Assembly: GCA_937860145.1 (NCBI GenBank)
Contig: CALMBF010000164.1
Span: forward strand, 1-64,000
DNA length: 64,000 nucleotides
Direction of reading: 5' to 3'
DNA from: an uncultured Geobacter sp.
GTDB lineage: Bacteria; Desulfobacterota; Desulfuromonadia; Geobacterales; DSM-12255
Part shown: one piece after another, positions 19,578 to 64,000 of the stretch
Position numbering within the stretch: the stretch's first letter is position 1
Layout: the number at the start of each line of letters is the position of its first letter
Position numbers and translations under genes: made by a program
Notes under the pieces: generated by a model
What the model was told of the DNA's origin: nothing
Databases searched by the model: none
Seen by the model: only the letters and a program-made list of their open reading frames with translations

Positions 19578-22500
19578 TCAGGGGCCCACATTGTCCCCGC
19601 TCTTGTAGGGGGGGGTGTATGCCATCCCCTCGGCAGAGAGGGACCAGCTCTGCCCGCTGAAGGAGCGGAGCCGGTAGCGGTACGGTTTCATGGGGTCGAT
19701 CCCTCTCCTGTCGGTGAAGCTTGTCGTTGCCGCACCGACGGTGGCTATCTGGACCCACACCCCGTCCCGGATCATCCGCTCGATGGCGAAGCCTTCCGGG
19801 GGGGAGCAGGGGCCGGGCGTACATGCCGCAGGGGTCCAGTCAAGCCGTACGACGAAGGCATTGAGGGGGGTGACGATCAGGTTCTGGCTGGTCACCATGA
19901 GCGGCGTCGTGACGCACTGCTGGGCGCTGTAGGCGGAATTGCCACCGGTGCTGTTCCATGCGCGCATCTGGTAGCAGTAGGTCGTGTTCGGGGTGAGTCC
20001 GTTGTCCGCGTAGCCAGCGGTAACCGGGGTGAGCGTGGGACAGGCAACGGTCGGGTAGGTCGAGCCGCAGTACTGCTGGCTGTACGGGAGTGCAACGTCA
20101 TCGATCTGGCTGTAGCCGCCCCCCCCGGTGCTCCGCTCGATCTTGTAGCTGCTGGCGCCTTTTACCAGGGGCCAGGAGAGGGTGGCCTGGGTCGCCCCGG
20201 TGGCCCCTGCCGTGATGACGGGTGCCGCGGCGGTCGTGGTGGTGGACTGGACGGCGCTGGTGGCCGAGAATCCCGCTGCCGAGTTGGCGCTGACCCTGAA
20301 GTAGTAGAGCGTCCCCGGAGAGAGCCCGGTGCTCGTGTAGGTGGTGACATCCTGGCCGACGCTCCCCACCCCGTTCGTCCAGGTGGAGTTGTCGAGGCTG
20401 CGGTCGATCTGGTAACCGGTATTGCCGGTTACCTGGGGCCAGGAGAGGGTGATGGACGAGGTGGTGATGCCGCTGAAGGTTATGACCCCCGGTGCTGACG
20501 GTTTCGTCGTCTGGGAGACGATGTTGCTGGAGGCGGAGTCCGGTGTCACCGGCGGCCCGGAGGGGCCCGTGGCGGCAACCTTGTAACAGTAGTACGTGCC
20601 GGGGGTGAGGCTGAGGTGGTTATAGGTCGTGGTGTTCATCCCCAGGACAAGGGGACCGCTCCAGCTGTCGTCGCTGCAGCTCGCCCCCCCCCGGACCTTC
20701 CAGTAGAGCTTGTAGCCGTTGTCTCCGGCGACATTGTTCCAGGTGGGGGTCAGCTGGCTCGTGCTGGCGGTGCCTGCGGCAGGTGCGACCAGTACCGGTG
20801 CCGGCGGGGTGATCGTGAGCCACTGCTCGTTGCTCCAGGCGGTGTAGTCGGTGGCGTTGTACTTGGCCCGGACCCGGAAGCGATAGGTGTAGCCGGAGAC
20901 CAGGCCGTTGTTGGCATCACCGGCGACCATCCTGGTGCTGCCGTCGGTCGGCTGGTTCATGGTAAAGGTCGTACAGGTGCCCGTGTTGACGGTGCGGACG
21001 GTGGGATTGTCGTTGTTGCTGGACTGGCAGCGTTCGACCTCGTAGAGAAGGGCAGTGGCGAGCCTGTCCCAGGAGACCTCAACCGGGTTGCCCCCCAGGG
21101 TCAGGCGGCGGAAGTTGTGGCCGACTTCCGGGTTCCAGTAGGAGGAGTTGGCGGTGACACCGGTTCCTGACGGCACGGTGAACTGGGCATTGCTGATCCC
21201 CGTCGTGACGGTGGTGCCGGCGGTATGGGGGAGCCTCCCCAGTTGGTAGATCCAGTAGGAGCTCGGGGTGAACAGGTCGCCGGCAGAGAGGTCGAGCTGG
21301 CGCCTCAGCTGCCACCCCCCCGCGGCAGGGGCGGTGTAGAACGAGAGGGTAGCCCCGCTCCGGGCAGAGCGGATTTTCCCCGCGGGCTCACTGGTCGGGA
21401 AGATGCGCGTATCGTTGACCGTGGCCACCGGATCATACAAGGTTACCCAGTAGGCCTCTGTTGCCTGGGCCGCGGCTCTCGGGTCGAAAATGGTGTAGCT
21501 GTCGCCACTGGCGATCTGGTAGGGGAAGGGGGGGTCGACGCTGATGCTGTTGGCGGTGTTGCCGGTGATCGTCCTGAACTGGCCGATGTTCCGTCCGCTC
21601 GACAGGTAGAGGTGGAAGCCCTGCCACTGGTTCGTGCTCCAGTTTTTCGCCGGCAGGGAGCTCCCGATGGTGTCCGATGAGTCGACCAGAAGGGCATTGG
21701 TGCTGGTTTTGCCGTCCTGGGTCGAGCCGTTGACGGCGGCGGTGCCGGCAATGACGTTGATCCGGTACGAATCGCCGGTGGGGGCGAAGATGCGGTAGGC
21801 ATCACCACTGCCGATGGGGGAGGTGAATCCGGTCCCCTCGACGGTCATGCTGCTGGCGTCGCTGGCGGTGATCCTGCGTGTCTGGCCGGCATTAGCCCCG
21901 CTGGCCATGTGCAGGTAGTAGTTCTGCCACTTGTTGATACTCCAGCCGGTCGCGACGGAGTCGACCAGCTTCGTCGCCGAGTTGCCGCTTGCGGCCGCTG
22001 TCCCCGCCGAAGCCGCCGGGTCGTTGGGGAACGGGCTTTCCAGGGTGATGCTCCCCGCCGTGTTGCCGGTTATCTTGCGCACCAGCTGGTTGTTGGGGCC
22101 GGAGGTCATCTGCAGGTAATAGTCCTTCCACTGGTCAGTGGCCCACCACCCCTTCCAGCTCGTTGCCGAACCGGCCATGGTCCTGGTGTCGTAGAGGGTG
22201 TTCACGGTTGCCGACCAGGCGGTTGACCTGCCGGTGTCCTGGAGGGGGATCCTGCCGCGGACGACCTGACTCTGGTAGCTCTTGCCCGGGGGGGACTGGA
22301 AGTCGATCCGGGAGGCGGCATAGGTGCTGGCGAGATAGAGGTAGGCCAGGGAAGAGTCCGCCGGGATCAGGCCGCTGCTGACCGAGTAGTCGAACTGGGT
22401 GTCGAAGTTCCCGGCAAGGGGTGACAGGTTTTTCAGGCTGAGGAGTTCGTAGTTGTAATTGTTGGCATACCCCGGTGCTGTCGAGGTGAACTCGACCGCG

Positions 22501-25500
22501 TTGCTGGTCAGCCTCAACCGGGCCGAACCCTGGGAGGCGCTGCCGGGGGATATTGCCGCCGAGATCTTGCCGCTGCCGCTCACGGCATCCACCGGCACGA
22601 TCATGTAGCTGTCGGTGGCATTGATCGTAGAGCCGAAGGGGGTCGAAACGGTAATCGTCGAGGCGCTCTTTCCGGTGATCAGCCGCGACTGGCCGTTGTT
22701 GCTCCCTGAGGTCATCTGCAGGTAGTACCCCTGGCTCCAGTCGGTCAGCCAGCTGTTCGCCGTGTCCACCAGCTCCGTTGTGCTGGTGCCGGGGCTGCCG
22801 GCTGCGGTTCCGGCGTAGGCGACGATCTGCGCTGCCGAGGCTATCACGTAGGAATCCCCGGGGACGATGGCGCTTTCGAAGGGGGGGGCAACGGTCAGCT
22901 TGCCGCCACTGTCGAATCCCGCGGTAATGAGCCGGACGTTGTTGACGTTGCTGCCGGAGGTCATCACCAGGTAGGAGCCGACGTAACTGGTCTGCCAGAC
23001 ATGGACCGTATCCACCAGCTGGGTCGTGCTGGAGCCTGCGCCGGTGGCCGTGCCGAAATAATTTGCCGCCCTGGCCGGTGGCGCGATCAGGTAGGTGTCA
23101 CCCGACGCAGTGGGGTACGGGAAGGGGTCGGTGGTGAGGGTTGTGGTCGTCTTGGCGGTGATTCTTCGGGCATGGCCGTTGTTGGCACCCGATGTCATCA
23201 TAAGGTAGTAGCCGGACCAGGTGTTGGCCCCCCAGGAATTGCCGCTATGTACCAGCTGGGTGGTGCTGCCGGCTGCGGTTGCCGTGCCGAAGTAGGAGGC
23301 TATCTGGTAGGTGTCCCCGGCGACGATCGCGGCGTTGAAGTTTGCCGTCGTATAGGGGTTGATGGAGCCGTTCAGCCCAATCGTCCGCTCCTGCCCGATA
23401 TTGGTGGCATTGACGCTGTTGAGGATCCTGATCTTAAAGTTGAGCCATTCGTTCAGCGACCAGTTCTTTTCGCTGTCCAGGAGGCTGTTCAGGACGCCGC
23501 TGTCGTTACCGGTGGCCTTGCCCGATACGGTCTGCAGGATCACGTAGCTGTCACCCTGGTTGATCGTCTCGGTGGCGAAGGCCGGGGAGGCATACACGGC
23601 GCTGTTGACGCTGCCGGCAATCCTGCGGGTATACGTGTTCCCTCCGGAGGTGATCACCACCGGCTGGCCGATGAAATAATCAGCCAGGCCCCAGTATTTC
23701 GAAACATCCTGGAGCACCGTGTACGAAGAGTCGAGCTCGGTGGTCGTCAGGGTAATGACCGGCTCGCTCGGCGGGGTGGTCTTGCAGACCGGGGGGCTGT
23801 AGACGGGCGGTGGCGGGATGGCTTCGGTGCTGTAGGCCTTGACCTTGTAGCAGTATACGGTGTCGAGGGCCAGGCCGGTATGGGTATAGGTGATGGTGTT
23901 TGCCGCCAGGCCCGTTGCCGCAGGAATGGGGGTGTACGTGCCGGCGATGCCGGTGGTGCTGACTTCGGCGGTGTAGTTGGTTTCCCCGGGCTGGGGATCC
24001 CAGTTCAGGGTCAGGGAAGTGCTGCTGGCCGGGGTGACGGTCAACGTCGGCGGGGTCAGGTTGGTCCAGGCGTGCAGTATGCTGCTGGCCGCCGAGGAGT
24101 TGGTGCCCGCCTTGGCGATGACCTGGTAGCGGTAATTGCTCCCCGCGGAGAGGCCGGTGGCAGAGTAGGTGGTTGTTGTCACGCCGGTCGCCTTGTCACT
24201 CCACCCCCCGTAGCTGCCGCTCGTTCCCCGGCAGGTGGAGGGGGTGGTGCTGTCGCTGCAGGCGGCCTGCTGGATTGTATACCCCGTCGCTTCGGGCACG
24301 GCTGCCCAGGAGAGGTCGATCTGGCTTGTCGTTACTCCCGCCGCACCGGTGAAGGTCGGGGCGGGGAGCGGCGTCGTGCCGCTCTGCTCGGTGCTCCAGG
24401 CGGAGTCGCCGGCGGCATTGGTTGCCTTGACGTGGAAATAGTAGGTCCTGTTCGGTGTCAGGCCGGATACGGTGCAACTGAGATTGGTATTCAGCGGGCA
24501 GCCCGAGGGGCCGAAGGTGCCGCCGGCCCCTTCCCGGTATTCGAGGGTGTAGGAGGTCACGTTGGCACCGGGGACCACGGGGTTTGTCCAGGAGAGGGTC
24601 ATGGCGGTGGTGGTTATGGCGGTCGGGGCAGCAAGGGTCGGGACGGCCAGTGCTGCCGTGCCGCTGGTTTCGTTGCTCCAGGAAGAATCACCGCCGCTGT
24701 TGACGGCCTTGACCCTGAAGCTGTAGCTGTTGGGGGCCGCCAGGCCGGTGGCGGTACAGCTCGTGGCGGCAACGTTGACGCACCCGGGGGCATCGGCGTA
24801 TGACCCCCCCCAGATCTTGAACTGGAGGGTATAGCCGGTTGCTCCGGTGACGCTGTTCCACCCCAGGGCCATCTGGGTGTTGGTTATGCTGGTCGGCGTG
24901 TTCAGGGTCGGGGCGACGGGCCTGGTCGGGGCCGACTGCTCGTTGCTCGGCAGGGAGTAGCCTGAGGGGCTGATGCTGCTGACGCGGTAGTAGTAGGTCG
25001 TCCCGGCACTGAGGCCGGAATCGGTGTGGGAGGTCACATCGCTCCCCTTTACCGCCAGTTCGGCCCAGCTCCCCCCGCTGCCGGTCTTGCGCTCGATCCG
25101 GTAGCCGCTGTTGCCGGCGATCTGGCTCCAGGAGAGGGATATCTGGGTCGTGGAGTCGACCACGGGCGGAGCGAGGATCGGGGCGGGGAGAGTCGTCGTG
25201 GCGCACTGTTCGATGGTACGGGAGTTGAGGCTTCCGGAGAAGGCGTAGATCCGGTAGCAGTAGCCGGTGTTCGTGGCGAGCCCCGTGTCTGTGAAACTCG
25301 TCATCCCCGCCGGGGCCGTGGTGACGGGAGTCCAGACACTCGTGGGGAGCACCGGGGCAGGGGTGCGGTCGACCTGGAACTGGGTTCCGGGGGTGTTGGC
25401 CCGCCAGGAGATGGTCATCGTCTGATAATCCGGGGGGGGCACCAGGGTTAAGGGTGCCGGTACCAGGATGTAGTCGTTCTTCTGCTTCACCACGAGGTAA

Positions 25501-28500
25501 TCGGGGTTGGAGGCATTGAGGGTAACCCCGGCGCTGAACGCCTCCCCCCGGTAGTTGGCGGCGATCGCCCTGGCTTCGTCCTGTCTGCCGCCGTCGTATA
25601 CGCTGGCGGAGAGGAATGTCCCCTCGAAATCGTAGATCAGGGAGAGGATGTCCGACGTGTCGTCATAGGCGGGGTCGGTGTCGGGACCGCTCCGGCTGTT
25701 GCCGGTGAGGTAGATGTAGCCGGAGGAGTCGACGGCCATCCCCGTCACGTAGTCGTAGCGGCCCGGCCTGTCGAAGTTCCTTTCCCAGATGACCGCGCCG
25801 TCGGCCGCGTTGTACCTGATGAGATGGAAGTCGCTGTCAGTGGCAGTGACATAGGAGGTGCCCGCCACGATCACCGCACCGTCGATGGGGTCCAGGGCGA
25901 CCCCTGTCCCCCGGTCATTGCCGTTGACCGGGGCCGCGGGACCGTTATGGACGGCGCGCCAGAGCTCCCGCGTGGGGACACTGTCGGCGCCGGCATACTT
26001 GAGGGTCAGCCACTCTTCGTTACCGCCGGCGTTAACGGCATATCCGGTCACGTAGAGGTCACCCTTCCTGTCGATGGCCAGGGCGAGACCGTGGTCGTCC
26101 CCGTTGCCCGCCCCGGCATAGATGTCGGACCAGACGAGCGCCCCGGTGGCGCCGGAATATTTGGCGGTGTAGATGTCGAAGTCGCCGGCGGCGTTTTCCG
26201 TGGAGCCGGTGATAAAGATATCTCCCGCCGTATCGAAGGCCACCGCGGACGGGTAGTCGTTGCCCTGGGCCGGACCAGCGTAGACGATCGGCGCCCACGG
26301 TCTGGTACCGTCGGGGCGGTACTTGATGATGAACATGTCTTCGTCCAGGGTGGCGTTGATGCCGTGGCCGATAACGACGATATTGTTGGCCCCGTCCCGG
26401 GACGCCTGGATGGCGGTCGCCTGGTCGATGCCCGCCTGGGTCCCGTACTGGTCGCTCCACGCCATGGGGGGATTGGCCGCCGGGTCGGTATGGGATGCGG
26501 AGCTGTACTTGATGGTGTAGAGGTCATCGCTCTTGTCGGAGCCGCCCGAAAGATAGGCCGTGCCGGTGACCACCGCATCGCCGTTGTTGTCCAGCACCAG
26601 CCCTGCCGCCATGTCGGTGCCGCCATCCCCGCTGTCGTAACGGGCTTTCCACGTGACCGACTTGTCGGTCCGGTTCAGTTTGATGGTCAGGTAGTCGAAG
26701 GAGTAGGCTCCTGCCACCCCCTCCTCGGTCAGGTCGCTGTAGCCGGTGACCACGGGATGGTCATCGCTGCCGGTGGTGATGCCGACCGCCTCGTCTTCCC
26801 TGTTGTCCGCGCCGTTGTACTGGTAGACCCACGAGGGGGGATCGTAGGTGATCACTTTCGTCAGGGCATGGCTTTCGTTGCTGTAGGCAGAGTCGCCGTC
26901 GGGGGTGTTGGAGGCCCGTACCCGGTAGTAGTAGTAGCTGTTGGGGGTGAGGGAGGCGTCACTATAGGCCGTGACATCGGCGGCAACCGTTGCGATCTGG
27001 GCATAGGCGCCCGCCTCACCCAGTTTGCGTTCGATGGTGAAGCCGGATTCGTTGGTCGAGTTGTCCTCCCAGGCCAGGGTGATGGTGCTGTTCGACGTGG
27101 CGGTAGCGACCAGTCCCGTCGGGGGATCGAGGGGGCCATGGTCGTAGCTGATGGCAAGGGTATCGAACAGGTTTGCCGCGGTATCGGTCCAACCGGCCAC
27201 GCAGACATTCCCCGACGGTGCCAGACCGATGCCGACCGGCCGGTCGTTCCTGTTGGCCGCGCCGTTGAAGCTCTGCTGCCAGAGGAGGGTGCCGTTGCTC
27301 TTCCGGTATTTCAGGGTCGTTATGTTCTCGTTGCTGCTCGTCACGGTGTAGCCGACTACGAAGACCCCGCCGGTGTCCCCCTCCTTCACCACCAGGTCGA
27401 CCGGTATGTCGGTGAAGTCGGCGCCGCTGTTGTAGATGGCGGACCAGAGCTTCGTGCCGTCCGTTCCCCGGTAGCGGGCGGTGTAGAAATCCTCGTTGCC
27501 GCTGTAGGTGTAGGTGTAGCCGGTGACGAAGATGTCGCCGCTGCCGTCGACCCGCAGTGCCCGGGGCTCGTCGTTGCTGCCGCCGTTATAGGTCGTTTCC
27601 CAGGCGAGGGTGCCGGGGGCCGCCGCCCCATACTTGGCGATGTAGATGTCGCTGTTGCTGCCGTTGGACAGGTAGCCGGACACGATGACGTTGCCGCTGG
27701 GGTCTGTCCTGACCGCCATGCCCCGGTCGTCGCCGCTGCCGGTCGAGGCCTTGCGCTGTTCCCAGACCAGAGCTCCTTCCGTCGTGTAGGAGCGGGTCAG
27801 GATGTCGAAATCCATCCCCCCCTTCGAGGAGGCGCCGGTGACCGCAATCCCGCTGGTGCCGGCGGCAATCGCCATGATCCTGTCGTTGCTGTTGTAGGGG
27901 GAGTTGTAGATCTCCGTCCAGACCGGCGCGGTGCCGGCGGCGGGATACTTCAGGATGAGGAAGTCGTCATTCCCCGAGGAGTTGGCGGAGTAGCCGGCGA
28001 CGTAAATATTGTCGTCCCCGTCAACGGCCAGGGAGGTGGCGATGTCGCTGCCGCCGGCCGCGCCGCTGAAGGTGTGCTGCCAGAGGAGGGTACCGTCGGC
28101 CGCGTACTTGATCGTGTGGATATCCGTGCTGGCGGCGTTCCAGACCGTACCGGTGACGATGATGTTCCCCTGTCTGTCCACGGCGACTGCCGTCGCCTGG
28201 TCATCACCGCCGCTCTTGTCGAAGGTCGCCCGCCAGGCTACGCCGCTGCCGTCGGCCTTGAACTTGGTCACCAGGTAATCGTTGTTCATCCCCCCGCTGT
28301 TGGTATAGCCCGCGACAATGATGTTGCCAGCCGGGTCAACGGCCATGGACTTTGCCTCCTGCCGTGCCGGCAGAGGGTCGGTGATGGGGAACGGGGTGAC
28401 GTAGTCTCCCCCCTTGCCGAATGCGGAGGCGGCAAGGCCGAGGGACATGACGACGGCTGCGGCCAGGGTGACCCATCGTCCACTGCGTTGCGGGAAGATC

Positions 28501-28532
28501 CCCTCCGTAGTGGCGGCGGATTGTTCTGTCAT
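19578..28532 (-). CDS. Giant exported scaffold protein: beta-propeller repeats, fibronectin type III domains and a novel ~65-residue repeat
   Basis: This is a ~2984-residue protein. I prefer ATG 28532 because AGGAG lies nine bases upstream; 28553 and 28580 are alternatives. A signal segment (ALLAA-type hydrophobic run near WVTLAAAVVMSLGLA) is followed by two SBBP-like propeller regions. Their repeats have the form A-V-D-x-x-G-N-I-x-V-x-G-Y and D-x-x-x-x-K-Y, and the regions encode about 27.1-28.4 kb and 25.5-26.85 kb. FN3 domains lie between and after them (for example TITLAWEDNST...YYYYRVRASN). Eight copies of a W/Y-rich repeat interrupt the FN3 series. There are no haem motifs. It is the second gene after the 28-haem cytochrome, so a cell-surface or matrix scaffold is likely. 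Confidence 0.85.
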   Translation of the reverse strand: MTEQSAATTEGIFPQRSGRWVTLAAAVVMSLGLAASAFGKGGDYVTPFPITDPLPARQEAKSMAVDPAGNIIVAGYTNSGGMNNDYLVTKFKADGSGVAWRATFDKSGGDDQATAVAVDRQGNIIVTGTVWNAASTDIHTIKYAADGTLLWQHTFSGAAGGSDIATSLAVDGDDNIYVAGYSANSSGNDDFLILKYPAAGTAPVWTEIYNSPYNSNDRIMAIAAGTSGIAVTGASSKGGMDFDILTRSYTTEGALVWEQRKASTGSGDDRGMAVRTDPSGNVIVSGYLSNGSNSDIYIAKYGAAAPGTLAWETTYNGGSNDEPRALRVDGSGDIFVTGYTYTYSGNEDFYTARYRGTDGTKLWSAIYNSGADFTDIPVDLVVKEGDTGGVFVVGYTVTSSNENITTLKYRKSNGTLLWQQSFNGAANRNDRPVGIGLAPSGNVCVAGWTDTAANLFDTLAISYDHGPLDPPTGLVATATSNSTITLAWEDNSTNESGFTIERKLGEAGAYAQIATVAADVTAYSDASLTPNSYYYYRVRASNTPDGDSAYSNESHALTKVITYDPPSWVYQYNGADNREDEAVGITTGSDDHPVVTGYSDLTEEGVAGAYSFDYLTIKLNRTDKSVTWKARYDSGDGGTDMAAGLVLDNNGDAVVTGTAYLSGGSDKSDDLYTIKYSSASHTDPAANPPMAWSDQYGTQAGIDQATAIQASRDGANNIVVIGHGINATLDEDMFIIKYRPDGTRPWAPIVYAGPAQGNDYPSAVAFDTAGDIFITGSTENAAGDFDIYTAKYSGATGALVWSDIYAGAGNGDDHGLALAIDRKGDLYVTGYAVNAGGNEEWLTLKYAGADSVPTRELWRAVHNGPAAPVNGNDRGTGVALDPIDGAVIVAGTSYVTATDSDFHLIRYNAADGAVIWERNFDRPGRYDYVTGMAVDSSGYIYLTGNSRSGPDTDPAYDDTSDILSLIYDFEGTFLSASVYDGGRQDEARAIAANYRGEAFSAGVTLNASNPDYLVVKQKNDYILVPAPLTLVPPPDYQTMTISWRANTPGTQFQVDRTPAPVLPTSVWTPVTTAPAGMTSFTDTGLATNTGYCYRIYAFSGSLNSRTIEQCATTTLPAPILAPPVVDSTTQISLSWSQIAGNSGYRIERKTGSGGSWAELAVKGSDVTSHTDSGLSAGTTYYYRVSSISPSGYSLPSNEQSAPTRPVAPTLNTPTSITNTQMALGWNSVTGATGYTLQFKIWGGSYADAPGCVNVAATSCTATGLAAPNSYSFRVKAVNSGGDSSWSNETSGTAALAVPTLAAPTAITTTAMTLSWTNPVVPGANVTSYTLEYREGAGGTFGPSGCPLNTNLSCTVSGLTPNRTYYFHVKATNAAGDSAWSTEQSGTTPLPAPTFTGAAGVTTSQIDLSWAAVPEATGYTIQQAACSDSTTPSTCRGTSGSYGGWSDKATGVTTTTYSATGLSAGSNYRYQVIAKAGTNSSAASSILHAWTNLTPPTLTVTPASSTSLTLNWDPQPGETNYTAEVSTTGIAGTYTPIPAATGLAANTITYTHTGLALDTVYCYKVKAYSTEAIPPPPVYSPPVCKTTPPSEPVITLTTTELDSSYTVLQDVSKYWGLADYFIGQPVVITSGGNTYTRRIAGSVNSAVYASPAFATETINQGDSYVILQTVSGKATGNDSGVLNSLLDSEKNWSLNEWLNFKIRILNSVNATNIGQERTIGLNGSINPYTTANFNAAIVAGDTYQIASYFGTATAAGSTTQLVHSGNSWGANTWSGYYLMMTSGANNGHARRITAKTTTTLTTDPFPYPTASGDTYLIAPPARAANYFGTATGAGSSTTQLVDTVHVWQTSYVGSYLVMTSGSNVNNVRLITAGFDSGGKLTVAPPFESAIVPGDSYVIASAAQIVAYAGTAAGSPGTSTTELVDTANSWLTDWSQGYYLQMTSGSNNGQSRLITGKSASTITVSTPFGSTINATDSYMIVPVDAVSGSGKISAAISPGSASQGSARLRLTSNAVEFTSTAPGYANNYNYELLSLKNLSPLAGNFDTQFDYSVSSGLIPADSSLAYLYLASTYAASRIDFQSPPGKSYQSQVVRGRIPLQDTGRSTAWSATVNTLYDTRTMAGSATSWKGWWATDQWKDYYLQMTSGPNNQLVRKITGNTAGSITLESPFPNDPAASAGTAAASGNSATKLVDSVATGWSINKWQNYYLHMASGANAGQTRRITASDASSMTVEGTGFTSPIGSGDAYRIFAPTGDSYRINVIAGTAAVNGSTQDGKTSTNALLVDSSDTIGSSLPAKNWSTNQWQGFHLYLSSGRNIGQFRTITGNTANSISVDPPFPYQIASGDSYTIFDPRAAAQATEAYWVTLYDPVATVNDTRIFPTSEPAGKIRSARSGATLSFYTAPAAGGWQLRRQLDLSAGDLFTPSSYWIYQLGRLPHTAGTTVTTGISNAQFTVPSGTGVTANSSYWNPEVGHNFRRLTLGGNPVEVSWDRLATALLYEVERCQSSNNDNPTVRTVNTGTCTTFTMNQPTDGSTRMVAGDANNGLVSGYTYRFRVRAKYNATDYTAWSNEQWLTITPPAPVLVAPAAGTASTSQLTPTWNNVAGDNGYKLYWKVRGGASCSDDSWSGPLVLGMNTTTYNHLSLTPGTYYCYKVAATGPSGPPVTPDSASSNIVSQTTKPSAPGVITFSGITTSSITLSWPQVTGNTGYQIDRSLDNSTWTNGVGSVGQDVTTYTSTGLSPGTLYYFRVSANSAAGFSATSAVQSTTTTAAAPVITAGATGATQATLSWPLVKGASSYKIERSTGGGGYSQIDDVALPYSQQYCGSTYPTVACPTLTPVTAGYADNGLTPNTTYCYQMRAWNSTGGNSAYSAQQCVTTPLMVTSQNLIVTPLNAFVVRLDWTPAACTPGPCSPPEGFAIERMIRDGVWVQIATVGAATTSFTDRRGIDPMKPYRYRLRSFSGQSWSLSAEGMAYTPPYKSGDNVGP
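21480..22227 (-). repeat. Protein-coding repeat block, copies 6-8 of the ~65-residue module
   Basis: Within the giant scaffold three successive units share the pattern W-x4-W-x2-Y-x-L-x-M-x-S-G-x-N-x-G-x-x-R-x-I-T-x-N-x3-S-I-x-V-x-x-P-F-P, then S-G-D-S-Y-x-I. Copy boundaries are approximate. The same module occurs at 22587-23760 and once in the neighbouring cytochrome (29397-29612). Confidence 0.7.
22587..23760 (-). repeat. Protein-coding repeat block, copies 1-5 of the ~65-residue module
   Basis: Five degenerate tandem units contain Y-L-x-M-T-S-G-x-N-N-G-x-x-R-x-I-T and G-D-S-Y-x-I signatures. The first two are the most divergent. The spacing of W, YL, TSG and GDSY is kept, suggesting one folded domain per unit. 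I do not recognise the domain. Confidence 0.65.
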
Positions 28533-28584
28533 AGGAATAAGCTCCTGGTTCATCTGGCATCTCCGGCTGAAAGGTTTCATTGTC

Positions 28585-31500
28585 TTACCACGGGGTCACG
28601 TTGTTCCACAGATTGCCGTCCGGCCATTGTGCCGGCGGGGTCCTGGAGTCGTAGGTCGGGGTGAATCTCCCCACGTGACAGGCAGTGGTCGCCTCGAAGT
28701 TGTTGGTATTGGTCCGCGCATAGTTCATGCCCCCGATGGGGAAGCCGCGGTGTTCCCAGCCATTGCCATGTGCACTGGCTGGCTGCTGTTTGTCCGCCGC
28801 CCATGGTTGCCCGCCGGAGACGATCCCCCCCCGGTGCTTGAAGTCCAGGCAGTTGGTCTGCATCAGGCGGGGCAGGCCCGAATTGTGGGGCTGGTGGCAC
28901 TTGGAGCAGGTGAAGGAGTGTTCGCTGTTTACCCCCCACTCCTTGACCGATTCGTGGATACGGTCGACGGTCTTGAATCCCGTGGCACCGTTGTTTCTGT
29001 TCACGCCGTCGGTGAGGTTCTCTTTCGTATGGCAGTTCGTGCAGAGTCCGGCAAACTGGTCGGCCTTTTCGTTGATGCGGGCGCCGCCGAACGTGTTGCG
29101 GTCCAGGTAGATCCTGTTGCTCGGTGCCGTTGGTGACGGGACGTTGTTGTACCAGCTGTATGTCTGGGTGTTGGCGCCCCAAGAGCGGGGTTTGCCGTTG
29201 TAATCGCCGGTTCCCGTGTAGACCGAGCCGACACGGTTGCCGGTGGGGACGGGAGGCGGTGCATCCTCCTTGTAGGGGGAGGTCATCCAGGTCCCTTTGA
29301 GAAGGGGCAGGGCATAGGGCTGTCTCTCCCCCAGGGCAGGGGTTACCCCATGGGGGTCGTGGCACGGCGTGCAGAGTCCGTTCACCGTCGCTGCATAGGG
29401 TATGACCTGATAGGTATCCCCGCTGGCAACGGCACTGGTAAACGGCTCGACCGTCAGCCCCGTTGCACCGTTGGCGAGGATTTTTCTGATCTGGCCGCTG
29501 TTAAGGCCGCCGGTCATGAGCAGGTACCGGTTCTTCCAGGTATCGACGGTCCAGGTTTTGGCGCTGTCGACCAGGGACGCCGTGTCGCCACCGGTGGCGG
29601 TACCCGTTTCCTTGGCAAGGTGGGGGAGGGCTCCCGCCGGTTGTGACGCGTTCAGGTGTCCCCCCACGATGGTCTTCATGATATCCCGTTCGGTAAAGCG
29701 GGCAGTGGAGCCTTTGGTCCCCTGGCCGAAGCGGGAGGTGTCCTTGTATCCCATGACCGGCGCCGTTGCTCCGAAGGTGGACTTGTACCCCCATGGTGTC
29801 TTGCCGTTGGGGGTCGAGGTGCCCGTTGTTTCGGAGTTGTGGCAGTCGAAGCACTGGCCGGCACCCGCGCCGTAGGGGTTTACCCCCGACGTCCCGGCCG
29901 AGGCCTTGTAATCGAAGGTGTACCCGCCGATGTTCTGCTTGGTCTCCTTCAGGTTGCCGCCGTTGTTGGTTCCGTTGAACGTGGTGTAGCTGGTGGTGGA
30001 GCCGACGACCTTGGAGCCGTGGGAGTTGTGGCAGTCGAAGCACTGCACGTTCCGGGTCCCTTCGCCGCCCCGCGTTATATCGATGGCGCCGTCGTAACCC
30101 GATGCCGCACTCCACCCCCCCTGGTTGGCGACTGCATTCCCGTGGGCGGAGAATGCCTTGGTCAGGGTGTCCTTCCGGTTGGCAGTGGGGTAGGTGGTGG
30201 AGTTGTACTTGCCCCATGGCCGGGTCGTGTCCTGGCCATAGCGGGAGGCGATGCTCTGGTAGTCCCAGGCGTACTGCCGCGGGGTCCGGTAGTCTCCGAA
30301 CGGCTCGCTGTCGTTGTTCTGGTCGCTGTGGCAGGAGATGCAGTGGGGGGTTATCTTGCCGACCTCGGTCCGCTCGCCGGCGGTACCGATGCCGACGGCC
30401 AGGAAGCGGGTGACGGTGGCTTTCCCCTCCGGGGTCGAGTAGGCACGATAGGTCGCCGGGCGCCTGCCCGGCTCCCAGAGGACCAGGTCCACATAGTCGT
30501 TCTTGACGGAGGAGTAGTTCTTGTAGTTGTAGCCGGTGTGGTAACGGGTGTCGATCAGCCCTTCGGGTGTCGACTCCCAGTGGCAGGCATAGCAGTGCTT
30601 GTTGGTGACGTCCACCCCCTGGACGTGGTGGGAGTTGGCCTTCATCTGCCCCATGATGTCCATCCGCTTGCCGATGGTGCCGGCATGGCACTTGGTGCAG
30701 TCCCGGGGGAGGCCGAAGGCGGTATGCTTGGGTATCGGCTTGTTGCTGTTGTGGCAGCTGTTGCAGGCCTGTTGGTTGGCGTGGCTGTCGGCAAAGCGGT
30801 GCTCGTGGCAGGAGGTGCAGATGCGGGTATAGTTGTGGCCGTCCCCCGAGCTGCTGGTGTAGTGCTTGCTGTCCGGGGAGTGGCAGACGTTGCAGATGCC
30901 GTCGAAGGGGGCGGTCTTGCGCGCATAGCTGGTGCCGGACTGCTTGTCCACGAAGGTGACGTCGGCCCGGGTCTTGGGAATGCCGAACGTGCCGTCCGTT
31001 GTGGTGGCCACCTTCCTCTGGATCATGTAGATGTTGCTGTCGCCGTGGGGGTCGTGGCAGTCCCAGCAGAACTTACCCCCCTTCCAGGTGCCGGTAACCC
31101 TGCCGCTCAAGTCCTTCGTCCACCCCCCCGATACCATGAATGCCCGGTAGTGCTTGTAGCCGAAGTGGGCCGAGGTTGCCCGTGCCTTCTTGGGCTTGAT
31201 GAAACCGGTGCCGGGATCGAATCCGAGGGAGTATTTCCTCGGATTGTCCGGCGGGGCGGTGTGGCACTCGGTGCACTGGCCGCCGCTGTCATCGTCGTGG
31301 CACTGGAGACAGACACCCATCATGATGTACTGGTTCTTGACGTCGCTCTTCTGCTCGGCCGTCCAGACCCCCGCGTTGACATTGTGTCCCTTGTGGTTGC
31401 CGCCCGTGAAGAGGCCGTCGTCCGTGTCGTGACAGCCGACGCAGGTCGAGGTGGCCGTGTGGGTCGGGTACCTGGTCTCAGTCCCCCCGCCCGGCAGCTT

Positions 31501-33546
31501 GAAGACAATGCCGCTTGCGGTGGCCTGGGGTGCCAGGGATTCGGCCTGGTTGACGTGGCAGCCGATGCATTCGGCGTCGGTCCGCTCCATGTGACAGTAG
31601 ACGCACTCCTTCTCGAAACGCCGCTCGTACTGGTGGTGCATCTGCAGGCGATAGGGGTTGCGCGCGTCATTGTGGAGGATGCTGTTGTCATGGCAGTACC
31701 AGCAGGGATTGCCCGGGAAGTTGGCTGCCGGGTTGCCCGAGACGGGATAGCGCCCGGAGGTCGAATAGCGGCCATGGCCGGTTGTCTCCCACTCAAGCTG
31801 GTTTATCTTCGCTCTCTGGCCATCGAATGCCGCGAAGTTGTCAAGATCCGCCGCGGTTGTCCGGTGACAGCCGAGACAGGTGATGGCGCTGTTGACCGAG
31901 CCGCCCCAGACGGGATCGGTCCCGCCGGTATGGCAGCCGCTCCCTGTGCCCGAGCAGGTTTTCGATGCGGTGTTGTAACTTGCCCCGGGCTCCTTGAAGG
32001 CGACATCCTTTCTCTTGTTCACATGGTTGCTGCCGTTCAGGTGGGAGACCTCTCCCATGCTGCCGGGTGGGATCCCCGTCGCGTGGCAGGAGGTGCAGGT
32101 GCCGTTGACGATGGTCTCCGCATGGCAGATGTCACAGGTGAAGCTGGTCTGGGCGTGCCGGGCGTGGGAATTGGCCCGGGGGGTGCCCGGCCCCTGGTTC
32201 GGGAACATGGGCATGGCTCCCATCCACCGGTTCTCCGGAGCCCAGTCGGTTTTCACCGTCCAGACCTTGCCGGTGACCGTGTCGATCCTGCCGTCGTGGC
32301 AGCCACTGTTCGAGCAGCTGCCGACCGGGTGGCCGTGGCAGGTGTTGCACTCAGTTTTCGGTTCGGTCCAGGCAAAGGGGCGGACCTGTTCGGGGTCGGT
32401 GGTGCCGTCGCTGTGGCAGTAAATGTTGCTGCAGACCTTGGTTTCCGGGTCGTAGCCGGCAGGGGGGCGGTTGTTCAGGCTCCAGTCCGGATGGATCACG
32501 ACGTTCTTGACGCCATTGACGTGCTTGGTCCTGTCACTCAGCCCCCCCGTGCTGTCGACCGTTTCGTAATGGCAGTAATAACAGGGGTACTTCCGTATCC
32601 ACTGGGGGCCGACCAGGCGGTGGTGACCGTTGGAGGCCATGGTCAGGTCCGGGGTGCAGTATCCCCGTGAAGCGCTCCAGATCCCGAAGCCGACACAGTT
32701 GCCGGGGGTGCTGTCCGTGGTTTTCCCGCGGTGACAGGTGAAGCAGTCGGTTGTTTTCGTGTCTGACCAGGTGAGCGGTTTGACCGGCGGGTTGCCCCGG
32801 CCGTCGCTGTGGCAGTAGGTATCGACGCAGCTGCCGTTGCGGGCAGGATTCATGCTTGGCAGATAGGCTGGGTAATCGTTGGTGCCGCCGCTGTAGGTGC
32901 CGCCCGAGTTCGGCGGGGTAAGGAACTGGACCGCGATGCCCCGCTTGCCGGCACCTGATGCGTGGGCAAACGTATTGTCTTCGGCAAGGTGGTTCCGGTG
33001 GCATCTGCTGCAGCTGTCCGTCGCTGTCCCGAAGTAGTCGCCATGTTTTTTCCCGTGGCTCCCGTCTAATGGCGGAGTGTTGTGGCACGAGGTGCAGGTC
33101 ATGAGTGAGCGGTCATCCCCCCACCGGGGAGTCTGGCTCTCAAAGTGGCAGTTGACGTTGGTGCAGTTCCCCGGGAGTGGTGTGGCAGTCTGCTGCCAGG
33201 CTGTTGTCCTGTTGTTGTACGTGGTGACCTGGGGGGAAACGTTCAGGTGAGGGGAGAGGGAGATCATGCCGTCCCGGTGGGCAGAGTCGTACGTTGCGCT
33301 CCCGGGATGGCAGGTGGCGCAGCGCTCACCTGCGGAGCCGAAGGCAACGTGTGACCGATGGTTGCCGATGAACCCTCCCGTGCTGATGTTGCGGTATGAC
33401 GAGTCGACCGGCCTGATATCCTTGGTGCTGCCCGTCCCGTGGCAGTCATAGCAGTTGAGTGGGGCTCCGGAACTGTCCCCGGCATAAAGGATGAGACCGG
33501 CTGACAAGGAGAGTGCAATCAGTGAAGCTGTCTTTATGGGGTTCAT
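28585..33546 (-). CDS. Secreted multihaem c-type cytochrome with 28 CXXCH motifs
   Basis: The start is ATG 33546, with CAGG eight bases upstream; a GTG at 33555 is less likely. The 1653-residue protein has a signal peptide ending near ILYAGDSSGA. By eye it has 28 CXXCH motifs, four CX4CH (TNVN, VDTY, SNIY, SNSG spacers) and one CX6CH. One copy of the ~65-residue repeat shared with the downstream scaffold protein sits at about 29.4-29.6 kb. Near the C-terminus CLDFKH and TTACH look like haem motifs that have lost one cysteine. An outer-surface electron conduit is likely. It is first in a two-gene leftward unit. Confidence 0.93.
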   Translation of the reverse strand: MNPIKTASLIALSLSAGLILYAGDSSGAPLNCYDCHGTGSTKDIRPVDSSYRNISTGGFIGNHRSHVAFGSAGERCATCHPGSATYDSAHRDGMISLSPHLNVSPQVTTYNNRTTAWQQTATPLPGNCTNVNCHFESQTPRWGDDRSLMTCTSCHNTPPLDGSHGKKHGDYFGTATDSCSRCHRNHLAEDNTFAHASGAGKRGIAVQFLTPPNSGGTYSGGTNDYPAYLPSMNPARNGSCVDTYCHSDGRGNPPVKPLTWSDTKTTDCFTCHRGKTTDSTPGNCVGFGIWSASRGYCTPDLTMASNGHHRLVGPQWIRKYPCYYCHYETVDSTGGLSDRTKHVNGVKNVVIHPDWSLNNRPPAGYDPETKVCSNIYCHSDGTTDPEQVRPFAWTEPKTECNTCHGHPVGSCSNSGCHDGRIDTVTGKVWTVKTDWAPENRWMGAMPMFPNQGPGTPRANSHARHAQTSFTCDICHAETIVNGTCTSCHATGIPPGSMGEVSHLNGSNHVNKRKDVAFKEPGASYNTASKTCSGTGSGCHTGGTDPVWGGSVNSAITCLGCHRTTAADLDNFAAFDGQRAKINQLEWETTGHGRYSTSGRYPVSGNPAANFPGNPCWYCHDNSILHNDARNPYRLQMHHQYERRFEKECVYCHMERTDAECIGCHVNQAESLAPQATASGIVFKLPGGGTETRYPTHTATSTCVGCHDTDDGLFTGGNHKGHNVNAGVWTAEQKSDVKNQYIMMGVCLQCHDDDSGGQCTECHTAPPDNPRKYSLGFDPGTGFIKPKKARATSAHFGYKHYRAFMVSGGWTKDLSGRVTGTWKGGKFCWDCHDPHGDSNIYMIQRKVATTTDGTFGIPKTRADVTFVDKQSGTSYARKTAPFDGICNVCHSPDSKHYTSSSGDGHNYTRICTSCHEHRFADSHANQQACNSCHNSNKPIPKHTAFGLPRDCTKCHAGTIGKRMDIMGQMKANSHHVQGVDVTNKHCYACHWESTPEGLIDTRYHTGYNYKNYSSVKNDYVDLVLWEPGRRPATYRAYSTPEGKATVTRFLAVGIGTAGERTEVGKITPHCISCHSDQNNDSEPFGDYRTPRQYAWDYQSIASRYGQDTTRPWGKYNSTTYPTANRKDTLTKAFSAHGNAVANQGGWSAASGYDGAIDITRGGEGTRNVQCFDCHNSHGSKVVGSTTSYTTFNGTNNGGNLKETKQNIGGYTFDYKASAGTSGVNPYGAGAGQCFDCHNSETTGTSTPNGKTPWGYKSTFGATAPVMGYKDTSRFGQGTKGSTARFTERDIMKTIVGGHLNASQPAGALPHLAKETGTATGGDTASLVDSAKTWTVDTWKNRYLLMTGGLNSGQIRKILANGATGLTVEPFTSAVASGDTYQVIPYAATVNGLCTPCHDPHGVTPALGERQPYALPLLKGTWMTSPYKEDAPPPVPTGNRVGSVYTGTGDYNGKPRSWGANTQTYSWYNNVPSPTAPSNRIYLDRNTFGGARINEKADQFAGLCTNCHTKENLTDGVNRNNGATGFKTVDRIHESVKEWGVNSEHSFTCSKCHQPHNSGLPRLMQTNCLDFKHRGGIVSGGQPWAADKQQPASAHGNGWEHRGFPIGGMNYARTNTNNFEATTACHVGRFTPTYDSRTPPAQWPDGNLWNNVTPW
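29397..29612 (-). repeat. Single copy of the scaffold-type ~65-residue module inside the cytochrome
   Basis: The segment reads A-S-L-V-D-S-A-K-T-W, W-K-N-R-Y-L-L-M-T-G-G-L-N-S-G-Q, R-K-I-L, then V-A-S-G-D-T-Y-Q-V. It matches the repeat in the adjacent giant protein position by position at the W, YL, SG and GDTY landmarks. It lies between two haem-binding regions. Confidence 0.75.
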
Positions 33547-33555
33547 GCTGGCCAC

Positions 33556-33789
33556 CTGCCGTGAGTAACGATCTGTTGTGCACTGTATGAAAAACGTTGT
33601 TTAGCTGAAAATAATTAGATGTTTATTATGCAAAAAGCAGGCCCTATCAAGGGATGCCAACATTAAAGGAAGGAGATGCTGCACGGGGCAGAAACGAGCT
33701 GCCGACGAGAGGGAAGCAGTGGGGTAGTGTAGCGGAGAAGGGATGAAAACCCGGCAGGTGAAACAGGACGGCGACAACAGGAGACGACG
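33556..33789. other. Upstream region of the 28-haem cytochrome
   Basis: No gene is seen in this 234-bp stretch. It is more AT-rich than the flanks over 33590-33660 and contains a -24/-12 type sequence on the minus strand (33643-33630). Confidence 0.6.
33630..33643 (-). promoter_or_regulatory. Candidate sigma-54 (-24/-12) promoter for the cytochrome/scaffold unit
   Basis: On the minus strand GG (33643-33642) and GC (33631-33630) are separated by exactly 10 bases, in GGCCTGCTTTTTGCA. The TTTGCA half fits the -12 consensus; the -24 half (GGC only) is weaker. Transcription would start about 70 bases before the ATG at 33546. Confidence 0.4.
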
Positions 33790-34338
33790 TTAGCCGCCCA
33801 TTCGGCTGAGGGGGTATTCGGCAAGTTTCACGTGGGAAACCGAGTTCCCGGAGAAGATGCTCTCGAAGAGGTGGAAGGCGGCGACCTGAAACGGGGAGGG
33901 GGCAAATGAGCCGTGGAGTTGTTCGAACTCCCTGACGAGGCTGAGTGGGGTCCCCTTGAGCCTGGCTATGGTTATGTGGGGGGCAAAGGGGCGCGTTTCT
34001 CCCGGAATGCCGGCATGCTGCAGGGCGCTCTCCACCCCCCTTTGCACGAGGAGGAGGGTGCTGTCGGCATGAACCCCTGCCCAGAGGATTCGCGGGGACT
34101 TCGCGGGGGGGAAGTGTCCTATGCCGGCAACAGCCAGCTGGAAGGGTGCCCCGCGAACGGTTGACAATCCCTTCTTGACAGCCAGCAGGGTCTGTTCGTC
34201 AACTTCGCCGATGAAGCGCAGGGTGAGGTGCAACTGGTCCGGGCTCACCCAGCGGCCTCCGGGAAGATCGTTCCTGATGGCGAAAACTTCCTCCTTGAGC
34301 GTGTCCGGTAGCTCGATGGCCACAAACAGCCGGTGCAT
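33790..34338 (-). CDS. thpR: RNA 2',3'-cyclic phosphodiesterase
   Basis: The 182-residue protein is a typical ThpR/LigT 2H phosphoesterase with the two HxTx motifs, HLTL at 37-40 and HITI at 121-124. It opens 2',3'-cyclic phosphates on RNA, and homologues also ligate half-tRNAs in vitro. An AG-rich ribosome site precedes the start. It follows the CapA-like gene by 15 bp and is probably co-transcribed with it. Confidence 0.92.
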   Translation of the reverse strand: MHRLFVAIELPDTLKEEVFAIRNDLPGGRWVSPDQLHLTLRFIGEVDEQTLLAVKKGLSTVRGAPFQLAVAGIGHFPPAKSPRILWAGVHADSTLLLVQRGVESALQHAGIPGETRPFAPHITIARLKGTPLSLVREFEQLHGSFAPSPFQVAAFHLFESIFSGNSVSHVKLAEYPLSRMGG

Positions 34339-34353
34339 ATCCTCCCCCTCCCG

Positions 34354-35388
34354 TTACTGCAGGGCGATCTCCTGTTTGCGCCTCTCCACCAGGTAGCTGG
34401 CGGTACCCTGCGAAAATGACGTTCCCATGTCGGCGGAGAGGCGGGCAAGGTGTCTGGCGACATCCTCTCCTCCGGCACCGTCGAGCGGGCGCGGCTGATA
34501 CCTGACGTCGCTGTACAGCACGTTCAGCGGGATCACCTCCACGGCGCTGATGCCGTTGTCGAGCGTTATGCGGGCGATCATGCTCCTGTCCGCTTTCCTG
34601 CTCCGGCTGGCAAAGGCGAAATTGCCGAGGCTGTAGAACACAACGCCGTGCTTGTAGTACTCGATCCCCTGCAGGACGTGGGGGTGGTGACCGAGAACCA
34701 CATCGGCTCCGGCATCGATCGCCCGGTGAGCCGTGTTCTTCTGGTATCCCCTGGGGAAGTCGTCACACTCCGTTCCCCAGTGAAACGATACGACGACGTA
34801 GTCGGCCGACTGTCGTGCCCGTGCGATATCGGTACGATAATAGGCCTCGTACCCGGGAGCCGTGCCGGCCCTGTCAGTGCCGGCATAGAACTCGGCCGGG
34901 TAGGTGAGGGAATAGGCAAGGAGGGCGATTCTTTTCCCCCTGACGGTGACGATGCTCGCCTGTCGGGCGTTGCCGAGGTCGGTGCCGGCGCCCGCATGGG
35001 AGATGCCGGCGCCGTCCAGGGTGGCAATGGTCTCCCGCAGGCCTTTGGCACCGAAATCGAGGATATGGTTGTTGGCAAGGGAGAGATGGGTAAAGCCGGC
35101 CCGCTGCAGGGCTGCAGCCGACGCGGGGGCACTCTTGAAACGGAATTTCTTCCCGGTGAACTCTTCGCCGGAGTTTGTGAGGGGAGATTCCAGGTTGCCG
35201 ATGGTGATATCTCCCCGCCGCAGCAGGGAGGTGGTGGCCAGAAACGGGTAGTCGTAGCCGGTGCGTTTGAAGAGAGCGGTCCCCGAGCCTGCAAGCATGA
35301 TGTCGCCGACCGCATTGATGACCACCGGTTCCGCCGGTGCCGAGGCGGGGAAAACAAGGAGAAGGATAAAAGGAATCACTCTGCGCAT
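34354..35388 (-). CDS. CapA-family exported metallophosphatase-like protein
   Basis: The preferred start is ATG 35388; an in-frame TTG lies at 35400, and neither has a strong ribosome site. The 344-residue product has a signal peptide (VIPFILLLVFPASAPAE) and the CapA/PgsA fold motifs VNAVGDIMLAG-like (INAVGDIML), GNLESPLT, LANNHILDFG and VVSFHWGTE, ending in the metal-site LGHHPHVLQGIE. Relatives take part in poly-gamma-glutamate or capsule export, but most single copies are uncharacterised. It is divergent from serS. Confidence 0.88.
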   Translation of the reverse strand: MRRVIPFILLLVFPASAPAEPVVINAVGDIMLAGSGTALFKRTGYDYPFLATTSLLRRGDITIGNLESPLTNSGEEFTGKKFRFKSAPASAAALQRAGFTHLSLANNHILDFGAKGLRETIATLDGAGISHAGAGTDLGNARQASIVTVRGKRIALLAYSLTYPAEFYAGTDRAGTAPGYEAYYRTDIARARQSADYVVVSFHWGTECDDFPRGYQKNTAHRAIDAGADVVLGHHPHVLQGIEYYKHGVVFYSLGNFAFASRSRKADRSMIARITLDNGISAVEVIPLNVLYSDVRYQPRPLDGAGGEDVARHLARLSADMGTSFSQGTASYLVERRKQEIALQ

Positions 35389-35414
35389 AAAGGGGGCCAA
35401 TGGTGGTCAGGATG

Positions 35415-35443
35415 TTGACTATGCCTCGGGCAAGTGCTAAAGA
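35415..35443 (+). promoter_or_regulatory. Candidate sigma-70 promoter for serS
   Basis: TTGACT (35415-35420) is followed after 17 bp by TAAAGA (35438-35443), giving a start about 30 bases ahead of the serS ATG. The -35 is good and the -10 is moderate. Confidence 0.5.
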
Positions 35444-35446
35444 TAA

Positions 35447-36757
<1,311 letters not shown>

Positions 36758-58993: not shown

Positions 58994-59023
58994 TGTAGTC
59001 TAATAAATTGGGAGGGAAACGAG

Positions 59024-60901: not shown

Positions 60902-60961
60902 GTGAAACCGTACGTCAGCACCCAGTAGGACATGCATAACCTTATAAACAGGAGCAGCACA

Positions 60962-63900: not shown

Positions 63901-64000
63901 CGGCATCCACGGGGGGAACAACACCTACACCCAGGGTGGTGGCGGTTCCCAGTCCACCTACCGGTTCATGCCGGGAATGAACAACAACGGGTACACCGTC
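60962..64000 (+). CDS. Multihaem c-type cytochrome, 3' end outside the window
   Basis: ATG 60962 follows AGGAG by seven bases, and the frame stays open for 1013 codons to the window edge. The signal peptide is FLLLLLLFAPVLI-type, ending near DASASA. By eye the visible part has 16 CXXCH, three CX4CH, one CX5CH (CSNVAGCH), one CX6CH (CSSGVSGCH) and one CXCH (NCSCHD). The first ~480 residues resemble the previous gene. The rest is different and includes CHDCH. It probably belongs to the same secreted system and transcript. Confidence 0.92.
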   Translation, partial: MGNIMNATHRNDYHITTRIDLLSFLLLLLLFAPVLIMPPDASASAISCSSGVSGCHFNPTVKDGTGRNVPTGRFTGSHARHSGYSTGSKRQYLLACTACHPSSGYTNNHQSGFKNITGSSLPGNRYSGGKKIANTNTPAFGNCSNIYCHSTGRATGMGQLQYSSARWGGTESCLGCHGGRNGSNLPARSVGNFTLTTTHSQHLKYSYTDINCQICHAKTATDATTLKNFTGVNHHVNGVRDVTFTNLAYASYTSYKSTEAGSIANTRICTNTSCHGGRTRSAWSATTINTDHQCSHCHGTAGTSAATQVTGTSRYNLRFFAPGYKKTGTVGTSTDQNVASNDLRVGSHFKHLSSAYMRNIKCNECHKVPSTPFSADTNHTLNTLRYNSGTLDFSQSSSARILIGVAAGSTPAQLAAFAGYTNGTAIKSASCSSVYCHGNRLKNGAAGGTYTRPYWNYSAMINYTDKTNACGRCHGNPPTSVSSQHSGKTPTTSCSTCHASVVNSSGVIINKALHINGQVEATSGHAFPYPGATHSVATGATNPSANCSCHDYTNAGTYPVAAGTAPACKACHTVGLLRTVATSSCYDCHGASATDGNPNAGTTFPNWSGAHPAHVTRGGMTCNQCHATGGTGNTNHGNSNRTAKTRTTVNVSGSFTYVAATQTCSNVAGCHGTAVWSVTTMDCISCHGAALGARRAVTGEMGGSATTNSHHITSGTLTKWHCIICHAEGNPSTGGTTTLHKNSAVDLRNVDAVSTASNGGTAGTNYWSIPNTKTATDYTNIDTFCFRCHDSAGAAQIAWNGSALRYTGGTAPSAAEALTPFADSLTNSYDQVARTRVLDVDTQFTTTNYSHHAVKAAKYTAAGGLPFNTVAILQGGNVDDNSRLHCHDCHYLNGHGTANNEYMLQNSSGADTLHTISTYVCLKCHTSTYSTNAHTGGNSGDFVDTAGAIGIAARAGGKTDGNITGMSCASCHNVGGTGWGGIHGGNNTYTQGGGGSQSTYRFMPGMNNNGYTV

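Follow-up and report, generated by a model that had tools for sequence, protein, structure and literature searches.

Two adjacent genes, one for a multihaem cytochrome (P0002) and one for a giant haem-free protein (P0001), make up a two-gene cassette that is spread over several bacterial groups and whose partners are inherited together. The example studied here lies in a stretch of 64,000 nucleotides, called the window below. The cassette probably encodes an adhesive pair for extracellular electron transfer that is decorated with accessory barrels (probability about 0.6); we infer that the two proteins are exported, assemble physically and serve in electron transfer. Work on extracellular electron transfer has yet to settle how cells place their very large secreted cytochromes on the outside, and the cassette, found in Geobacterales, Nitrospirota and others, offers a candidate scaffold for every cytochrome of this kind. 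In the open-access literature searched, neither the cassette nor the presence of this barrel in a cytochrome was found to be described; the barrel, the cytochrome motif families, FN3 domains and propellers are each already known.

In the preferred reading, a secreted cytochrome (mostly with 21–46 CxxCH motifs) and a secreted giant of propeller and FN3 domains would form the conserved cassette. The giant most likely keeps the cytochrome in place, on the cell surface or within the matrix, and fastens it to something, and electrons would leave (or enter) the cell along the haem chain of the cytochrome. A single insertion in one clade of Geobacterales may have placed an accessory barrel in a surface loop of the cytochrome, and the giant would have gained the barrel separately, at two other places. 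Barrels, together with a lectin-like sandwich, would make the complex adhere; in the giant of the window, the barrel seems to have been multiplied eightfold, with three copies interrupting the predicted sandwich. A wider proposal, which is put forward only tentatively, is that the cassette represents an undescribed extracellular electron-transfer machine, in which a giant cytochrome is firmly joined, in several phyla, to an adhesive scaffold of propeller and FN3 domains on the megadalton scale, and in which barrels of the phage-hub type were gained by either partner to set the attachment surface, matrix or partner cell.

The gene pair and its shared unit

Both genes lie on the minus strand, P0002 upstream and P0001 downstream, and P0001 begins 4 bp past the stop codon of P0002 (Table 1). 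The start of P0002 is either a GTG at 33555 or an ATG at 33546. The number of its CxxCH motifs, 28, is a lower count, because four CX4CH motifs come on top of it. By eye, a hydrophobic stretch similar to a Sec signal is seen at the N-terminus of both proteins, and no lipobox is visible in P0002. P0001 is composed of β-propeller repeats (SBBP; TIGR02608, delta-60), FN3 domains, eight copies of the unit described below and a predicted ConA-like sandwich. Housekeeping genes (LigT, PGA_cap, seryl-tRNA synthetase, DUF1847 and SelB) flank the pair, and an Rfam search of window positions 28000–36000 gave no match.

Table 1. Positions of the two genes and of the features within and beside them, in window coordinates
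Feature	Position	Strand	Remarks
Multihaem cytochrome P0002	28585..33555	-	1656 aa; 28 CxxCH and 4 CX4CH; N-terminal hydrophobic signal
Giant haem-free partner P0001	19578..28580	-	3000 aa; no CxxCH
Cytochrome unit (P0002, residues 1315–1386)	29398..29613	-	Placed just before haem motif VNGLCTPCHDPHG
Type-D block (P0001, about 1613–2499)	21084..23744	-	About 880 residues; holds c1–c8 and the split sandwich
Unit c1	23529..23729	-	Profile; weak, 20 bits
Unit c2	23295..23522	-	Profile; 28.6 bits
Unit c3	23079..23294	-	Profile
Unit c4	22836..23060	-	Profile
Unit c5	22593..22817	-	Profile; copy used for fold prediction
Unit c6	22020..22214	-	Profile; C-terminal edge missing
Unit c7	21783..22010	-	Profile; matches the GTA hub barrel again in the 511-residue model
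Unit c8	21483..21755	-	Profile
ConA-like sandwich, first half (P0001, 2019–2118)	22227..22526	-	Predicted model
ConA-like sandwich, second half (P0001, 2374–2470)	21171..21461	-	Predicted model
Terminator-like hairpin 3′ of P0001	19532..19548	-	Consensus match only

The unit shared by the two proteins is about 70 residues long, and its copies in P0001 span residues 1618–2366. A profile was built from five clear copies (c3, c4, c5, c7 and c8), and it recovers the three weaker copies at 20–48 bits, which confirms the eight scaffold copies of the original prediction. The single cytochrome copy, said there to be inserted between haem regions, is equally firm. It scores 74.9 bits with the five-copy profile (sequence E 2e-23), whereas no single domain scores above 2.4 bits in 400 cytochromes with shuffled sequence, and it is located between the 25th and 26th CxxCH (residues 1235 and 1395). 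Conserved columns of the unit are W, G, N, R, I, T, F and GD.Y. No Cys or His was found in the twelve units that occupy this site in different cytochromes, therefore the haem chain is not extended by the unit. Cys is likewise absent from 23 units of the giants classed below as type D.

P0002 resembles the large outer-surface multihaem cytochromes of Geobacter, in that both PF09698 (CxxxxCH/CxxCH) and PF22113 (MtrC/MtrF-like) score above cut-off; the PF22113 domain II/IV profile gives 41.3 bits against a cut-off of 30, a sign of partial kinship only. It differs from them by the barrel inserted in it and by the giant partner inherited along with it. Cytochromes of the MtrC/OmcA type have about ten haems, whereas the CxxCH motifs of P0002 are three times those of MtrC. 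When P0002 was compared by phmmer with the PDB, including the OmcS, OmcE and OmcZ filaments, no chain was matched at E ≤0.01.

A run of other multihaem genes is present on the plus strand of the window at 51044–64000 and in the continuation of the contig (L019, 4278–8693). Within the window, it encodes proteins of 2649 aa with 31 CxxCH, 625 aa with 9, and at least 1023 aa with 16. Past the window end follows a protein with 22 CxxCH, whose C-terminal family is that of P0002. The unit is absent from all multihaem proteins of this run.

The cassette across bacteria

Loci were gathered through the conserved C-terminus of the cytochrome (alignment A3), which yielded 80 named loci in addition to order-wide loci of Geobacterales. 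Besides the window, a cytochrome of the P0002 family stands directly before a P0001 homologue in 56 distinct loci, and the intergenic gaps are mostly −40 to +30 bp. Most intact cytochromes fall in the range of 21–46 CxxCH, lower counts being those of contig-end pieces. Record titles assign the cassettes to Geobacteraceae, Nitrospirae, Desulfobulbaceae, unclassified Deltaproteobacteria and one gammaproteobacterial MAG, where MAG labels need caution; Geobacter sp. OR-1 and Geomobilimonas are culturable Geobacterales with a cassette. Homology among all compared giants extends over about 1600 residues at the N-terminus, and types A, B and D share a further stretch of about 490 residues at the C-terminus. 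When the trees of cytochromes and giants from 22 cassettes were compared, 12 of 19 splits were in common, against a mean of 0.2 and a maximum of 4 with shuffled labels; 6 of 8 splits were shared for the 11 cassettes of types A and D. Adjacent genes that are inherited together should show such agreement whether or not their products touch. The original prediction is supported as far as the coupling of the two genes goes, by the further loci and the concordant trees, and is not supported in the reason that it gave, the sharing of the module. Its view of two neighbours of otherwise unrelated build has to be revised as well, since this build is no accident: the giants of these pairs share the homologous regions given above.

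There are several minor observations on loci of this kind. The source genome has a third cassette (L280, G000:C167:12000-24346) consisting of a cytochrome with 27 CxxCH and a giant of 2540 aa, neither with the unit, which serves as an internal comparison. In two loci of Geotalea toluenoxydans (L168 and L188), the giants are distributed over at least four ORFs beside shortened cytochromes, and these loci are apparently decayed or assembly errors. Three open frames of 3816–4360 aa on G000:C134 (near 23026, 34884 and 48570) show weak matches to the cytochrome C-terminus.

A predicted hub-type barrel and a predicted split sandwich

The AlphaFold2 model of unit c5, made with 40 aligned units, has six strands (pLDDT 88.8, pTM 0.78). 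In the structure comparison by VIA-align, its best match is the hub protein of RcGTA (6tba_7A, residues 170–248; Z 10.2, 1.7 Å over 73 of 75 residues), followed by the hub of roseophage R4C (Z 9.4), and both stand well above the following rows. The next matches are phage tails, tailspikes, Dit proteins and glycan-active enzymes at Z 6–7.5, for which the comparison tool warns of a mere common arrangement. It is well supported by this predicted model that the unit is a small β-barrel of the gene-transfer-agent or phage hub type. The corresponding family, PF09356 (Phage_BR0599), is named by 15 of the 40 units with a best E of 2e-4. No single unit reaches its cut-off of 22.9 bits, the best of the own genome having 22.3 bits; the whole of P0001 scores 47.5 bits, which is reached only as the sum over repeats. 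For the hub family TIGR02218, P0001 scores 21.8 against a cut-off of 80.5. A tblastn search with c5 against 50,697 phage records gave no match, and a unit from outside the cassettes found one cyanophage protein; the phage link therefore rests on fold and profiles. Matches of the unit profile to the Pizza6 propeller in the PDB were dismissed, because no single stretch passes and the score merely adds up across the designed repeats.

Thus, the unit has in common with the hubs of phages and GTAs (PF09356/TIGR02218) the same barrel fold over its full length and a weak but recurrent sequence match. The units differ in that they are carried, single or arrayed, by bacterial cytochromes and FN3 giants, in that they have no attachment, iron-sulfur or clip parts, and in that no phage or GTA structural gene cluster adjoins the pair of the window. 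In the RcGTA hub, four cysteines around the barrel bind an iron-sulfur cluster (PMC7296036), and these cysteines are missing both from the twelve same-site cytochrome units and from the 23 units of type-D giants. Haem proteins would here reuse a building block of phage tails as a bolt-on module.

The C-terminal part of the array was modeled together with its surroundings. In this 511-residue model (P0001, 1990–2500), which is of middling confidence (pLDDT 74, pTM 0.72; the five models range from 74 to 49), units c6–c8 sit between the two halves of a ConA-like sandwich. The predicted sandwich matches 3mep and 3o12 with Z 13.1 over 156–159 residues, and it also matches GH43 C-terminal domains and PL7 lyases with Z 11–13 over 155–190 residues; no Pfam family was recognised in the rejoined halves. 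Its predicted fold is that of ConA-like lectin and glucanase sandwiches (3mep, 3o12, PL7, GH43 C-terminal, and the evolved Dit CBM 5ly8), from which it differs by the interruption with three hub-type barrels. A similar case is the tailspike LKA1 gp49 (4ru4; Z 6.5), in which an insertion barrel lies within a loop of another β fold, although the barrel there is hosted by the helix of a polysaccharide lyase instead of by a haem protein or a lectin-like sandwich.

These matches bear on an alternative in which the units are sugar-binding modules and both partners grip the same polysaccharide, be it that of the cell's own capsule, of its biofilm matrix or of a partner cell, so as to keep the haem protein where electrons pass. 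It is possible, with the odds against it. The region of the RcGTA hub that corresponds to the unit (residues 168–249) has been termed an oligosaccharide-binding domain because it resembles the barrel inserted in LKA1 gp49 (PMC7296036), and the corresponding region of the R4C hub is termed likewise (PMC10276861). Phage tailspikes, Dit proteins and glycan-active enzymes are among the fold neighbours, and the same block has a predicted sandwich resembling lectin, PL7 and GH43 domains. However, the authors of the LKA1 study regarded the role of that barrel as unclear and only suggested a possible part in substrate binding (PMC5701251); since the name of the hub domain leans on this likeness, sugar binding by the unit has the standing of a hypothesis. 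The fold alone is uninformative on sugars, because Uba1 and V-ATPase subunits have the same barrel, and the conserved columns of the unit may simply hold the barrel together. The barrels are perhaps sugar-binding, and it is possible that the units of both partners bind the same ligand. The barrel at least gives a concrete suggestion for what the decorations may do, namely binding to matrix or sugar.

Distribution and insertion history of the unit

Statements on whole genomes are based here on profile searches. In the source genome of 3.96 Mb, the unit is confined to the pair of the window and to a paralogous pair on contig C79, whose cytochrome has at least 18 CxxCH and one unit and whose giant of 2947 residues has seven units. 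Units were detected in 24 of 141 Geobacterales genomes. Of the 44 unit ORFs examined in this order, window pair excluded, 29 are part of cytochrome-giant cassettes, 5 encode giants that lie at the end of a contig, 8 encode further multihaem cytochromes and 2 are haem-free strangers. As a control for query bias, a second profile was made from 14 units whose hosts are haem-free or unrelated proteins from beyond Geobacterales, none of them from cassettes. It matched in 25 of the 141 genomes, on essentially the same ORFs, and query bias was rejected as the source of the cytochrome link. Outside the class, the CxxCH count is below five in 28 of 30 unit-host ORFs, and no cassette is among the 30; another order of the same class has two unit hosts, with 30 and 34 CxxCH. 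Because the outside hosts are mostly haem-free, the unit is seen as a general module, and its tie to cytochromes as specific to this class; the tie may be due in part to the abundance of multihaem proteins there. The expected concentration of profile hits in multihaem cytochromes and their neighbours is thus real within Geobacterales and lost outside the class. The module is not rare, as had been supposed, but a widespread PF09356-like barrel of hub fold that is present in many hosts.

Within the cytochromes, the unit occupies one orthologous loop, seven residues before LCTPCHDPHG, and where a cytochrome lacks it, a short loop takes up this exact site. The eleven unit-bearing cytochromes of Geobacterales form one clade (support 100/98). 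A Nitrospirota cytochrome (L177) has a unit (1961–2036) at the Geobacterales site, yet its surrounding cytochrome groups with Nitrospirota. This twelfth same-site unit breaks the simple story of a single insertion, and it possibly arrived by transfer of the C-terminal part of the cytochrome.

In giants of types B and C, the unit is placed after the first propeller. The giant of the window is of type D, and its block of about 880 residues is missing from the closely related, otherwise collinear giants of type A. The giant of L068 has the block, and its flanks group with those of L066 and L069, both without it, so that at least two gains or losses of the block have to be assumed. In the tree of units, which has few columns and many open forks, grouping is by insertion site and not by cassette. 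Each of c1–c8 is orthologous across three giants (seven copies in L018), no cytochrome and giant units of one cassette are sisters, and c2 weakly joins the cytochrome units. Recent copying of the unit between neighbouring genes is not supported by this tree.

This history allows another explanation, in which the units are passive, that is, an insertion-tolerant barrel spreads by recombination among large secreted β-rich proteins without contributing any function. It would account for the different sites in different lineages, for the presence or absence of the block among giants with closely related flanks, and for a unit that is optional everywhere and common in unrelated secreted proteins. 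It is nevertheless unlikely, since all the copies of the array were kept as separate orthologues, the block is 66% identical between the window and L068 and thus no less conserved than the flanks (59%), the loop insertion is retained throughout the whole cytochrome clade, and matches in Geobacterales are almost all within cytochrome systems.

Counting the window, 57 cassettes could be compared for the unit: it is in both partners of 3 (the window, the C79 pair and L068), in the cytochrome only of 13, in the giant only of 19, and in neither of 22. A role for the units as mutual contacts that link the cytochrome to its giant is most improbable, since beyond the three cassettes that fit it at least one partner has no unit in 54 of 57, the unit tree follows insertion sites, and no positive association is seen between a unit in the cytochrome and one in the giant (Fisher p 0.07, odds ratio 0.27, towards avoidance, with loci that are not independent), which makes the unit an unlikely glue. 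The preferred reading and these alternatives overlap in part, and so do the probabilities attached to them. In the preferred reading, the barrel is probably an adhesive or spacing decoration and not a partner contact, because it is accessory, occurs eightfold, brings no haem ligand and interrupts the sandwich.

Two further loci have features of the same kind. In a deltaproteobacterial genome (RIFOXYD12; L197, 1334–8088), at least eight units are carried by a giant that is split between two ORFs, and this array, which lies outside Geobacterales, is an independent one. A weak unit match is also present in an open frame of about 15,080 aa (L278, G070:C1 near 132316).
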